Source: Candidatus Sulfopaludibacter sp. SbA3
Lineage (GTDB): Bacteria; Pseudomonadota; Alphaproteobacteria; Caulobacterales; Hyphomonadaceae
Assembly (NCBI GenBank): GCA_945913285.1
Contig: CAMEDD010000005.1
Span: forward strand, 1 to 64,000
Direction: 5' to 3'
DNA: 64,000 nt
This document shows, piece after piece, positions 37,722-49,262 of this stretch. The notes beneath the pieces were generated by a model that worked only from the letters and a program-made list of their open reading frames with translations, made no database searches and was not told the origin of the DNA. Numbering within the stretch: the first letter of the stretch is position 1; the number at the start of each line of letters is the position of its first letter. The position numbers and the translations under genes are program-made.

Positions 37722-38624
37722 ATGGATTGGGGAAAGCTCAGATCATTTCATGCCGCCGCTGAAGCGGGCAGCCTGACCCTCGCCGGAGAGCGGCTGGGCA
37801 TTTCGCAATCGGCGGTGTCGCGTCAGATCGCGGCGCTTGAGGAGCAGCTCGGCGTCTCCCTGTTCCAGCGCCATGCGCGCGGGCTGGTGCTGACCGATAG
37901 CGGCCACACGCTTTACCGCTCCACCTCGGACATGGCGACGGCTGCCCTGTCGGCCAACACAGCCTTGAAAGACCAGCAGGAAACGCCGCAAGGCGAACTG
38001 ATCGTCTCGGCACCTGTCGCGTTTGGCTCGATCTGGCTGGTGCCCCGCCTCGGCGGCTTCGTCCGGCGCCACCCGGATCTCTACCTCGACCTGCGGCTCG
38101 ACGATCAGCGGGAGTATGACTTGCTGAAGCTGGAGGCCGAGTGCGCCATCCGCCTCTGGGCGGCCGACAAGGCCGACCTGATCCAGCGCAAGCTGGGAAC
38201 GGTGGCGACCAACCTTTATGCCGCGCCGGAATACCTGAAGCTTTATGGTGTACCGCGTACCCCCCGGGACCTCGATAATCACCGGATCATTGCTTATGGC
38301 GACGAGAACTCGCCGCTGCAGGAGATGAGCTTTGCGCGCCGGGTCGGCCGGGATGACGCGCCGCCGCGTACGGCCATGCTGACGGTGAACAACGTGTTTG
38401 CCATGATGCGGGCGGTGGATGCCGGGCTCGGGATTGCCGATGTGCCGGACTATATGGCGAGCACCCTGCCGCGGCTCGTGCGGGTCTTGCCGGAGATCAC
38501 CGGGCCCTCGTTTGATCTCTATTTCATCTATCCGAGCGACCTGCGCCGGTCCAAGCGGGTAGCGGCGTTCCGTGACTTCCTGACCTCGGAAACGGAGCCC
38601 CTGCGCAAGCCGTCTATGCGTTAG
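37722..38624 (+). CDS. LysR-family transcriptional regulator
   Basis: 300 residues. The N-terminal winged helix-turn-helix is WGKLRSFHAAAEAGSLTLAG followed by LGISQSAVSRQIAALEEQLG and LFQRHARGLVLTDSG, a textbook LTTR domain. The co-inducer domain continues with LIVSAPVAFGSIWLVPRL. Family knowledge says it binds near its own promoter and controls a neighbouring gene. The nearest candidate is the decarboxylase upstream on the same strand, 61 bp away. An sRNA-like unit follows 93 bp downstream. Confidence 0.9.
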   Translation: MDWGKLRSFHAAAEAGSLTLAGERLGISQSAVSRQIAALEEQLGVSLFQRHARGLVLTDSGHTLYRSTSDMATAALSANTALKDQQETPQGELIVSAPVAFGSIWLVPRLGGFVRRHPDLYLDLRLDDQREYDLLKLEAECAIRLWAADKADLIQRKLGTVATNLYAAPEYLKLYGVPRTPRDLDNHRIIAYGDENSPLQEMSFARRVGRDDAPPRTAMLTVNNVFAMMRAVDAGLGIADVPDYMASTLPRLVRVLPEITGPSFDLYFIYPSDLRRSKRVAAFRDFLTSETEPLRKPSMR

Positions 38625-38683
38625 TGTCGATGAACAATTTGTAACGCGTGCAAAAATGCATGCGTGACCTGCTGACCCGCATG

Positions 38684-38711
38684 TTGCAATGCAGCGTAAC
38701 GCTCCTAAATA
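38684..38711 (+). promoter_or_regulatory. Promoter of the putative sRNA
   Basis: TTGCAA (38684-38689) and TAAATA (38706-38711) with a 16-bp spacer. This is one of the best sigma-70-like promoters in the window, and no protein start follows it. Confidence 0.6.
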
Positions 38712-38717
38712 GACCCT

Positions 38718-38832
38718 ATGCCAAAGGTCCTGGGCATAACCCGATCATTCCTCCGATTGGGCGTTTCCTCCCCCTCACAGGACCCCACTTACAGCCCGGC
38801 GCGTCGCAAGATGCAGCCGGGCTCTCTTTTTT
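38718..38832 (+). ncRNA. Putative trans-acting sRNA with anti-Shine-Dalgarno loops
   Basis: A unit of about 115 nt bounded by a good promoter and a strong intrinsic terminator, with no ORF and on neither neighbour's coding strand path. CCCGATC (38740-38746) pairs with GATTGGG (38755-38761) and exposes the loop ATTCCTCC. A second C/U-rich stretch, TTCCTCCCCCT (38765-38775), is unpaired. GGTCCTG (38726-38732) pairs with CAGGACC (38778-38784) and encloses the inner hairpin. CCUCC in loops is the seed used by several alphaproteobacterial sRNAs to occlude ribosome binding sites. The identity is inference; no named family is claimed. Confidence 0.6.
38793..38832 (+). terminator. Rho-independent terminator of the putative sRNA
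   Basis: AGCCCGGC (38793-38800) pairs perfectly with GCCGGGCT (38816-38823), a 15-nt loop lies between, and CTC plus six T residues follow. It ends just before the stop of the convergent 653-residue gene. Confidence 0.85.
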
Positions 38833-38837
38833 CTGCC

Positions 38838-40799
38838 CTATTTGCGGTTTCCGAACCTGCTTCGCAAAAGCAGGTACACCACAAACGCGGCGCCCACGAC
38901 CGTGGCGGCAAGGGAGAAGTAGAGCGTGGCAGCGGAGAACGCGTCCCACGGCGTGATCCAGGCTTTCGCGGGCAGGTGAACGAAGGGCGGAACCAGCGAA
39001 AAGTGAACCCCCTCGCTACTGGGAGTGCCAGGCGGCGCCTTTAAGTTCGCGAAGTATTTCAGCTTGTCTGCCCAGTCGAAGGCAACCTGGAAGAATCCGA
39101 AGATACCGAGCGCTCCGAGGCCTGCCGTCAGCAGACTTTCATCATCCTGCTTGATCCGTTGCTCGCGGTCATGGGTCTGGTTTTCGAGGTTCGAGATCAG
39201 CTTTTCTATATAGTCGTTGCGCCTTTCGATGCCCCGCAGCTTCATCATCGAATCGAACACATCGCGCTCTGTGTCGTATCGAAAGATGTTGGTGTAGCGA
39301 TCTCGATAATAGGCGGCATAGTCGCCCGTGCGAAACGAATAGAACTTTCCGGCGGCGGACTTCAGTTTACCCCGGTTGCCGAGTGTCTCTACATCGCCGA
39401 GCAGTTTGAAGGCGGACGCCTCGTACTCGCGGGTCATGAATTCGTTGTGCATCGACACAGCGTGAATCATGAAGGCGTAGGCACAGGTGCCGATGAAATC
39501 ATTGGCCGCTTCGAGACTGCGGGCTTTCTCTACATATGTGATCAGCGCGCGCGGGTTGGCGAAACGGACAAATTTCCGCTCGGCCGCCTGGGCCTCGGTG
39601 GTTGGATAGATGGGATCGGTGGAATCGAGGATCTCCGACGGATCCTGGTTCATGAAGTCGATGATGTTCTGGTTGAACCCGGATACAAAAAGATAATGCA
39701 GGCAATCCTGCCGCCGCCGGTCTTCCATTGCGGGGAACGTCTTGCGGGCGGCTTCGATTTCGGCGTCGGTGTATGCGTCATAGTCCGGACGGTTGATCAC
39801 CCAGTCCCAGTATTCCGGACCGAGGCGCACCTCCGGCACATCGACGTTCGACTTCGGATTCAGTCCTTGGAGCTTTTCCTGGAAGGGCAGGTAACATCCC
39901 TCCTGCACCATGAGCATGCGCGCCACGGGTTTGCCGGTTTCAGGATTGGGTTCCGGCAGCAGGCGCCTGAAGAACGTCTTGTCCTCGAAGAAGAACATCA
40001 GCCGCGAGACTGGCATCACGAGGCCCGGCACCTCGATGAATGGCGCCTCGGATAGGAGCTGGTCAAAGCGAGGCGCGATCGTGCGGACAGGTGGGCCCGC
40101 CGGCAGGCTGGATTTCAGGCTGCTGAAGAGGTCGCCCGCATCCGCGTCGAAAACATCGCGGACATATTGCCAGAAGCTCTGCGCCTCGCCGGCCGCGGCT
40201 TTCACCTTGATCCCGTCGAGCGGCACGAGACCGGTAGGCGCGTCCGTGGGGCGTACGGGCTGGCTGCCGGGCGGACGAGGCGCCGCGGCAAACTCCTTGG
40301 GCGCTGCGAGTTTCTGGATCAGCGAGAGGAAATAGAAGTCGCCCGGCGTGTGGTCATAGTTGTAGCGGAACGACAGGTGATAGCCGATCGCGCCGTTGGC
40401 GTGGGTGTACCAGAAGCGGCGCACGCGGATGAGGCGGGTCTTGTCGAGACCGGGCGGGGTCGCGATGAAGCGGCGCCCTTCGGTTGTCCATTCGATTTCG
40501 GCTGGGGCGGTGAACTCGAGAAACTCACCGGCGCGGCGGCATAACGTGTCGAGGAGGAAGTCGTCTACCGCGCCGAGGCGTTCCCGGTCGGCGATGTCGT
40601 TGAACAGCGGCTCGACGGCGTCACGCAGGCGTTTGCTGGAGCGGTAGCCAGGTTGGAACGCGCGGAGCAGTTCGGGGGCAAGATGCCGGCCAAGCGCCTC
40701 TGTCACCTTCTGTTCAGTGATATAGAGCGACAGAGTGAAATAGAGTGAACGGTCTTCGCAGTCTTCGAAGTCTTCCCGCGCTTCAGGTTCAGCAGCCAT
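38838..40799 (-). CDS. Large protein with C-terminal membrane helices, unrecognised family
   Basis: 653 residues, mostly soluble, with two hydrophobic segments near the end: LLTAGLGALGIFGFFQVAFDW (about 565-585) and FSAATLYFSLAATVVGAAFVVYLLLR (about 620-645). A coiled-coil-prone run (IEKLISNLENQTHDREQRIKQDD) precedes the first. The layout (large cytosolic head, coiled stalk, two C-terminal helices) recalls CorA-type transporters, but there is no GMN motif. Two Trp/Tyr-rich segments (VRRFWYTHANGAIGYHLSFRYNYD; GPEYWDWVINRPDYDAY) may be distinctive. AAAGGAG before the ATG at 40799 fixes the start. The GNAT-like gene ends 29 bp upstream, so the two form an operon. Confidence 0.7.
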   Translation of the reverse strand: MAAEPEAREDFEDCEDRSLYFTLSLYITEQKVTEALGRHLAPELLRAFQPGYRSSKRLRDAVEPLFNDIADRERLGAVDDFLLDTLCRRAGEFLEFTAPAEIEWTTEGRRFIATPPGLDKTRLIRVRRFWYTHANGAIGYHLSFRYNYDHTPGDFYFLSLIQKLAAPKEFAAAPRPPGSQPVRPTDAPTGLVPLDGIKVKAAAGEAQSFWQYVRDVFDADAGDLFSSLKSSLPAGPPVRTIAPRFDQLLSEAPFIEVPGLVMPVSRLMFFFEDKTFFRRLLPEPNPETGKPVARMLMVQEGCYLPFQEKLQGLNPKSNVDVPEVRLGPEYWDWVINRPDYDAYTDAEIEAARKTFPAMEDRRRQDCLHYLFVSGFNQNIIDFMNQDPSEILDSTDPIYPTTEAQAAERKFVRFANPRALITYVEKARSLEAANDFIGTCAYAFMIHAVSMHNEFMTREYEASAFKLLGDVETLGNRGKLKSAAGKFYSFRTGDYAAYYRDRYTNIFRYDTERDVFDSMMKLRGIERRNDYIEKLISNLENQTHDREQRIKQDDESLLTAGLGALGIFGFFQVAFDWADKLKYFANLKAPPGTPSSEGVHFSLVPPFVHLPAKAWITPWDAFSAATLYFSLAATVVGAAFVVYLLLRSRFGNRK

Positions 40800-40828
40800 G
40801 CTCAACTCCTTTAACGTGGCCGCCGCCG

Positions 40829-48880: not shown

Positions 48881-48918
48881 CCCGTTAATGCCCCTTAACG
48901 TTATTGGGGCTTACGCCG

Positions 48919-49262
48919 GGGGTCCGGATCACCTATATTCAAAAGGTCTTCGGACTATGGCGATAAATGCGCGTGTAATAAGCGGCTCGGACCCGGGGGC
49001 GGTACCCGGCAGCTCCACCAAAAGACGGCTCGTGTAGCCGTTTCCTGATGGGGCTGAAATAGTGTCGACGGACGTGTAAAGACGAGGCTTTCGCTCGCTT
49101 GAGCTGCGTTAGAAGCTCAAAAGCAAATAGTTGCAAACGACAACTTTGCTGAGGGCGAACTGCTCGCCGCGTAAGCGGTGACGGTTTTTCCGACCTAAGT
49201 CCTCCGGTTTCAGACCCGGAGGCGGGGCCCGGGGGCGCCTGGCAACAGAAGCCCCCACTTTT
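48919..49262 (+). ncRNA. ssrA: Transfer-messenger RNA, circularly permuted two-piece form
   Basis: The acceptor piece ends in CAGCTCCACCA (49010-49020), whose CAGCTCC pairs with GGGGCTG (49050-49056) at the 5' end of the coding piece. This permuted order is the alphaproteobacterial arrangement. The tag frame starts at GCA 49133: A-N-D-N-F-A-E-G-E-L-L-A-A-TAA (stop 49172-49174), close to the Caulobacter tag. The acceptor T-arm is CCGGG-GGCGGTA-CCCGG, a T loop unlike canonical TTCRA. The 29-nt interval 49021-49049 would be excised. The ends given are approximate. tmRNA rescues stalled ribosomes and directs ClpXP degradation via SspB, whose gene is 5.6 kb downstream. Confidence 0.93.
49231..49262 (+). 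terminator. Rho-independent terminator of ssrA
   Basis: GGGGGC (49231-49236) pairs with GCCCCC (49251-49256), followed by ACTTTT. A further CCTCCGG/CCGGAGG hairpin (49200-49221) precedes it. Confidence 0.7.

Follow-up and report, generated by a model that had tools for sequence, protein, structure and literature searches.

Between a LysR-type regulator gene and a convergent reading frame in the 64,000-nt window analyzed here (the whole stretch of DNA, to which all coordinates refer) lies a short unannotated interval, and we sought to rationalize whether this interval encodes a regulatory RNA and, if so, to which kind of circuit such an RNA would belong. A sequence-only reading had proposed an alphaproteobacterial sRNA gene of anti-Shine-Dalgarno (aSD) type at this position, with a promoter and terminator of its own, and the comparison with relatives supports that proposal: as judged from conservation, folding and compensatory change, 38718–38832 is a conserved small-RNA gene (Table 1). 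We consider it probable that its product represents the Hyphomonadaceae version of a trans-acting aSD repressor that is linked to lsrB and activated by LsrB, bringing together an AbcR-like locus, an alphaR8-like core and a pseudoknot. In the titles and opening abstracts that we found in the literature, there is no description of this RNA, of its knot, or of an lsrB–sRNA module spanning the class.

Table 1. Coordinates of the sRNA locus and of other features in the window (distances with minus signs are relative to the predicted sRNA start).
Feature	Position	Strand	Details and basis
LysR-type regulator gene, LsrB/VtlR family	37722–38624	+	9HH1 match; PF00126, PF03466
Palindrome GTGC-N6-GCAT	38648–38661		−70 to −57; one letter off family consensus ATGC-N6-GCAT
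LsrB box, GCATGCGTGACCT	38658–38670	+	−60 to −48; exact match to published LsrB/VtlR box GCAT-N3-TG-N3-T
Promoter TTGCAA-N16-TAAATA	38684–38711	+	TTGCAA 38684–38689, 16-nt spacer, TAAATA 38706–38711
sRNA gene, ~115 nt	38718–38832	+	Alignment A1 (41 distinct sequences), model R1, folding z −4.76
Pseudoknot stem S1	38718–38737	+	AUGCC 38718–38722 / GGCAU 38733–38737; pair counts, RNAalifold
Pseudoknot stem S2	38726–38784	+	GGUCCUG 38726–38732 / CAGGACC 38778–38784; pair counts, single-sequence MFE
Hairpin with aSD1 in loop	38740–38761	+	aSD1 AUUCCUCC 38747–38754; stem paired in 100% of cells
aSD2, free CGUUUCCUCCCCCU	38762–38775	+	Alignment A1; cmscan alignment to RF00519
Intrinsic terminator, 8-bp outer stem + T6	38793–38832	+	Stem strands AGCCCGGC 38793–38800 / GCCGGGCT 38816–38823, T6 38827–38832; window reading, pair counts on A1
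Convergent 655-aa ORF	38838–40805	−	Ends 6 nt past the sRNA T-run
Alphaproteobacterial tmRNA gene	48907–49259	+	RF01849, 242.9 bits
VirD4/TraG coupling-protein-like ORF	about 59908 onward	+	By eye

A conserved transcription unit behind a LysR-type gene

A BLAST search with 38680–38840 returned a single copy in the window's own genome. Of 61 genomes searched, 36 gave a match, namely 36 of 37 from the source genus Hyphomonas (the sole exception being a genome that is 74% complete) and 0 of 24 from the order's other families. Searching named genomes with a 19-letter core gave 50 stretches, of which 48 belong to the family and come from Hyphomonas, Henriciella, Ponticaulis, other Hyphomonadaceae and entries under other labels; the two others, in Dehalococcoidia (L070) and Grimontia (L086), are unrelated chance matches to the 19-mer and were dropped. 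Four truncated loci (L015, L085, L094, L095) were removed before counting, and the figure of 46 used below denotes distinct sequences. Three loci labeled Acidobacteria or Sulfopaludibacter (L089, L096, L103) have a typical Hyphomonas lsrB–sRNA arrangement, and these bins are probably mislabeled or contaminated. Model R1, built from the 41 distinct sequences of A1, was applied to 120 genomes sampled across the order. At E ≤ 4e-8 it detected the RNA in 24 of the 25 same-family genomes among them and, outside the family, in a single genome (G311); at E ≤ 0.01 the hits extended to 86 of the 120, but those between about 1e-5 and 0.01 are not counted here. The remaining same-family genome, G368, showed neither the LysR gene nor the sRNA at the cut-offs used.

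The elements of a transcription unit recur throughout these relatives. The promoter is present as the sequence-only reading had claimed, placing the predicted start at about 38718 when the window is read directly, and a promoter of TTG-N15..18-TA type stands at a fitting distance in 46/46 distinct loci (5.3/46 expected from shuffles under the same rule). The claimed perfect terminator stem and T6 are likewise there, with the correction that 3 nt separate the T-run from the stem; 94.4% of cells are paired over 7 pairs of this stem in A1, two of which change on both sides. The output of a simple terminator scan did not include this site. The folding energy of the RNA is −46.4 kcal/mol, compared with −31.35 (sd 3.16) for shuffles.

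The LysR gene lies 5′ of the sRNA at a near-constant distance in 79/84 loci, the remaining 5 having no upstream sequence (some genomes enter this count more than once, as both named and unnamed loci). Since the sRNA is on the LysR strand, starts 93 nt past the stop, and ends in a terminator that would also end the LysR mRNA, it could be read as an RNA derived from the 3′-UTR, or simply as the terminator region of that mRNA, with no independent regulatory role. The promoter found at every distinct locus argues against such a reading, as do the compensatory changes and a pseudoknot that starts at the predicted +1 (both described below), and we regard it as improbable.

The interval had also been described as containing no ORF. 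Taken literally this does not hold, given that ATG38718, at the predicted start, opens a frame of 108 codons in the window, and a leaderless small protein would be conceivable on that ground. The frame is unconserved among relatives: it shifts from one to the next, the ATG at the start of S1 is missing in 14/46 distinct sequences, and base changes track base pairing rather than the ATG38718 frame. We rejected the leaderless ORF because its frame is not conserved, and hold such a protein to be very improbable indeed.

The 5′ part is predicted to fold as a pseudoknot

Strong comparative evidence indicates that the 5′ part of the RNA adopts an H-type pseudoknot, in which S1 begins at the predicted +1 and the 5′ strand of S2 lies inside the S1 loop. 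In alignment A1, S1 is paired in 97.5% of cells with both-sided change in 4/5 pairs, and S2 in 95.1% of cells with both-sided change in 4/7 pairs; when partners are shifted by 1–3 columns as a control, just 24–50% of cells pair. These counts cover 41 of the 46 distinct sequences (five Ponticaulis-type sequences were aligned apart, as A2) and include four rows that look misaligned in the knot (L082, L097, L100, L111), which were counted against it. RNAalifold selects S1 and the single-sequence optimum selects S2; the two stems exclude each other in nested folding yet both covary, as a pseudoknot predicts. Compensatory changes across relatives, by which the sequence-only reading proposed that it be judged, were thus found in S1, S2 and the terminator. 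That reading had GGTCCTG/CAGGACC closing the structure; the pairing is borne out, but beyond closing the structure these strands would form the knot jointly with AUGCC/GGCAU.

The letters of both stems vary while their pairing persists. S1 is AUGCC/GGCAU in the window, AUGCG/CGCAU in L005–L007, UAGCC/GGCUA in L082, GUGUU/GACAC in Henriciella-type loci and UGCAUGA/UCAUGCA in Ponticaulis-type loci, and the variants of the S2 5′ strand (GGUCCUG, GGUUCCG, GGUUCUG, GGUCUCG, GUCUC and others) each match their own strand 3′ of the free aSD run. A knot can be formed by 45/46 distinct sequences, with S1 of 4–7 bp, a first loop of 1–3 nt, S2 of 5–8 bp and 0–1 nt between; the exception, L097, has an S1 of 3 bp only. 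Knots of at least 12 bp occur in 42/46 distinct sequences versus 21/600 shuffles. Six distant lsrB-linked loci were searched under looser limits and with their own control: G311, L266, L272 and one of the two tandem copies in G377 show the same layout in different letters (knot score ≥ 11, versus 4/240 shuffles), and the remaining two, L268 and G377 copy 0, do no better than chance.

To our knowledge, a pseudoknot fold is rare among base-pairing sRNAs. RydC of enterobacteria is a pseudoknotted, Hfq-dependent sRNA; it comes from other bacteria and is not known to be related in sequence to the window RNA or to have an aSD pair. The knot raises the question of whether it serves 5′-end protection, seed gating, or both.

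Two aSD elements and the comparison with AbcR and alphaR8

Both aSD elements of the original description, one in the loop of the first hairpin and a second free run, are present in the window: strands CCCGATC (38740–38746) and GATTGGG (38755–38761) enclose the loop ATTCCTCC, and the free run TTTCCTCCCCC occupies 38764–38774. The hairpin yields no covariation test because 6/7 of its stem pairs never vary in A1. Its loop aSD does vary among relatives (ATCTTTATTCG in L013, TTCCTTCG in L005), and GGGCGTTTCCTCCCC is identical in every alignment row. The free run is therefore, as aligned, the more constant of the two putative targeting elements, its constancy being partly by construction because the same string served to pick or anchor the loci.

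A pair of aSD motifs, one in a 5′ hairpin loop (here AUUCCUCC) and one free (here UUUCCUCCCCC), is characteristic of the AbcR sRNAs, and so is a position beside lsrB. In Sinorhizobium meliloti, abcR1/2 are reported in the intergenic region beside lsrB, with a looped aSD1 and a free aSD2 (PMC8844928). The window RNA thus resembles AbcR1/AbcR2 (alphar15, Rhizobiales, as described in print) in its place, its length of ~115 nt and its one loop and one free aSD. It differs in that the letters of AbcR aSD2, UUCCCCUC, which belong to an ultraconserved stretch, are absent from it, and in having a pseudoknot, which does not figure in the available parts of the published AbcR description. No AbcR-type family match appeared in our Rfam scans, and UUCCCCUC with a C-rich partner was found in 0/110 of the LsrB-like loci treated below, so that this sample holds no AbcR locus. 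Straight membership of the AbcR family is unsupported, UUCCCCUC being absent.

The free run invites a second comparison, with alphaR8 (MmgR, SisA–D; RF00519), in which a weak hairpin is followed by free UUUCCUCCC, ACUU and a terminator. When aligned to RF00519 by cmscan, aSD2 together with its preceding bases has GGGCGUUUCCUCCC in common with the alphaR8/MmgR core; the 10-mer UUUCCUCCCU, which in alphaR8 is free and follows a weak hairpin, corresponds to UUUCCUCCCC in the window (9/10 letters), where a 7-bp hairpin precedes it. SisA, the alphaR8 RNA of Caulobacter, is reported to repress a target through the 10-mer and to be sponged by CrfA (PMC12559287). Straight alphaR8 membership was rejected on score and genomic place: the RF00519 model gives the window RNA 16.1 bits against a threshold of 41. 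A looser version of the idea, that the RNA is a divergent extra alphaR8 copy which settled behind lsrB and acts via the 10-mer, draws on the shared GGGCGUUUCCUCCC with a hairpin before it and ACUU and a terminator after it, and on the multiple alphaR8 copies per genome reported for Caulobacterales (PMC12559287). Set against these likenesses, R1 gives six Hyphomonas alphaR8 loci only 12.1–16.4 bits, and the canonical copy of this genome (48.9 bits) sits elsewhere, beside an FGase gene (G000:C13) as published for the main alphaR8 copy, whereas the window RNA has as its neighbors the LysR gene and a gene that matched no family. Neither lsrB linkage nor a 5′ pseudoknot appears in the available parts of the published alphaR8 description. 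We judge an extra alphaR8 copy to be unlikely, though still a serious competitor to the lsrB-linked repressor that we favor.

An LsrB-type regulator and its candidate binding site

The best solved relative of the LysR protein is 9HH1 (E 9.5e-72; next 2e-27), the LsrB of Agrobacterium tumefaciens (PMC11975290). Cys273 is reported as the functionally needed cysteine of that protein (PMC11975290); the window protein has Ile at this position and keeps the counterpart of Cys144 alone, so that peroxide should not be taken for granted as its signal.

Upstream of the promoter, the window carries an exact match to the LsrB/VtlR box consensus given in PMC7486931 and PMC8844928, lying at −60 to −48, compared with −61 to −49 for the LsrB box reported in the S. 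meliloti abcR1 promoter (PMC8844928). The exact published box occupies the same place in 23/46 distinct loci (1.05 expected from shuffles) and is absent from the other 23/46. Overlapping it is a palindrome whose exact family form, ATGC-N6-GCAT at −74 to −69, occurs in 41/46 distinct loci, the window itself having GTGC. The rhizobial precedent for control is divided: AbcR1 is reported as LsrB-dependent in PMC8844928, in disagreement with PMC7486931, according to which deletion of lsrB in S. meliloti was without effect on the AbcRs.

Related arrangements across the class

LsrB/VtlR and its sRNAs have been studied in Rhizobiales. LsrB is described as unique to that order in PMC11975290, and as present in many Alphaproteobacteria in the abstract of PMC7486931. 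We found an LsrB-like gene in 130/240 sampled genomes of the class (LsrB-like meaning E ≤ 1e-60 alone, without a tree) and examined 110 of these loci (L117–L226). A TrxB-like motif precedes the LsrB-like gene in 84/110, and a trxB–lsrB operon has been published for Rhizobiales. Palindromes were assessed at spacings 3–10 with controls: the class counterpart, ATGC-N7-GCAT, occurs within 250 nt 3′ of the LsrB-like gene in 54/110 loci, against 2/110 in 5′ flanks and 0.6 expected, its N7 spacing differing from the N6 of Hyphomonadaceae. The published box is weak in the class flanks (20/108, versus 4/108 in 5′ flanks and 2.7 expected).

Behind the LsrB-like genes we identified 45 strict cases of an aSD sRNA comprising a TCTCCCA hairpin, a free GCCTCCC run and a terminator (alignment A3), from which model R2 was built; the lsrB linkage of these 45 loci is by construction, as they were picked behind LsrB-like genes. 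Outside its training loci, R2 recovered an RNA on the same strand within 600 nt downstream in 27/63 non-Hyphomonas loci, bringing the total (45 strict + 27 by R2) to 72/108 sampled non-Hyphomonas loci; a looser text pattern alone matched 61/110 LsrB-like loci. Counted by genome at E ≤ 1e-4, R2 was found in 87/130 LsrB-bearing genomes versus 10/110 others, or 42/85 versus 10/110 once the 45 training genomes, all among the 87, are set aside. In 70 of those 87 genomes, the R2 RNA follows the LsrB-like gene at a distance of no more than 1 kb.

The window RNA shares the class layout, lying directly 3′ of an LsrB-like gene on the same strand with a palindrome between. R2 scores the Hyphomonadaceae RNAs at 9.8–14.2 bits (E 0.07–1.4) in 10/13 loci, found no RNA at E ≤ 10 in L001 (the window's own locus), L101 or L111, and gave 0 hits at E ≤ 1e-4 in genomes G000 and G007. 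Because these scores are weak or absent, it is place and box, and not sequence, that speak for common descent with the other lsrB-linked RNAs. We claim that the Hyphomonadaceae RNA and the class RNAs occupy a shared location and are likely controlled alike, without claiming that common descent is proven.

The class RNAs have CCUCCCUGUU..GAC and a terminator in common with SorX and SorY of Rhodobacter (RF02784, RF02651); the window RNA gave no SorX/SorY match at E ≤ 10. Permissive Rfam scans covered 20, 4 and 20 sources, partly overlapping. Gathering thresholds were reached in 0/20 LsrB-like loci scanned (some of which have no R2 RNA), and SorX matches of 41.5–44.1 bits in L166, L197 and L223 all fall below the threshold of 46.6. 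Directly 3′ of the LsrB-like gene in L223 (1695–1776) lies a SorY-like RNA (62.1 bits, E 7.8e-11, threshold 111), which suggests that SorY belongs in the lsrB-linked group. The class core over the 45 sequences of A3 reads GTCTCCCAGACGTxAAGCCTCCC, and may deserve an Rfam family of its own. Tandem copies of lsrB-linked sRNAs, recalling abcR1/abcR2, occur in L180 (G232) and at G377:C1:1171242–1171615. In two further loci of the order (L275 and L276, family f4), an aSD run TCCTCCCC can be seen by eye behind lsrB twice, once in a hairpin loop and once in the terminator loop; judged by eye, these are another layout of lsrB-linked aSD sRNA.

These arrangements raise the possibility, which we put forward tentatively and at slightly less than even confidence, of an old trxB–lsrB–sRNA module across much of Alphaproteobacteria with an ATGC-N6/7-GCAT operator, of which AbcR, the SorY-like RNA and the Hyphomonadaceae RNA (rebuilt, with a knot gating its seed) would be local forms. 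If true, a regulator–sRNA circuit known from rhizobia would be class-wide, and testable in harmless aquatic bacteria.

Proposed mode of action and candidate targets

For the lsrB-linked repressor that we favor, the LsrB-type regulator encoded just upstream would bind the box near −60 and drive the sigma70-type promoter. The resulting transcript would cap its own 5′ end in the H-type pseudoknot, whose long third loop would contain both C-rich seeds, the loop AUUCCUCC and the single-stranded UUUCCUCCCCC. With Hfq (an hfq gene is present in the genome), the seeds would be expected to base-pair at ribosome sites that contain GGAGG and thereby to block translation, as the architecture and the AbcR and SisA precedents suggest. 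The 3′ strand of S2 stands just behind the second seed; target pairing and opening of the knot may therefore be coupled, and we speculate that the knot gates this seed.

In the window's own genome, the target pattern GGGAGGAAA-N2..9-ATG was found 13 times, at 12 places, versus once for the reversed pattern; the pattern is biased toward Shine–Dalgarno sites and shows no regulation. By eye, the ORFs behind it include alcohol-dehydrogenase-like, SDR, acyl-CoA-synthetase-like, CaiB-like and TonB-receptor-like products, and three are of 65 aa or fewer.

Other features of the window

The convergent 655-aa ORF on the far side of the sRNA has no Pfam or NCBIfam match and stands behind the sRNA in part of the genus only. 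Further downstream is the tmRNA gene, and the coupling-protein-like ORF hints at a conjugative element at the right end of the window.
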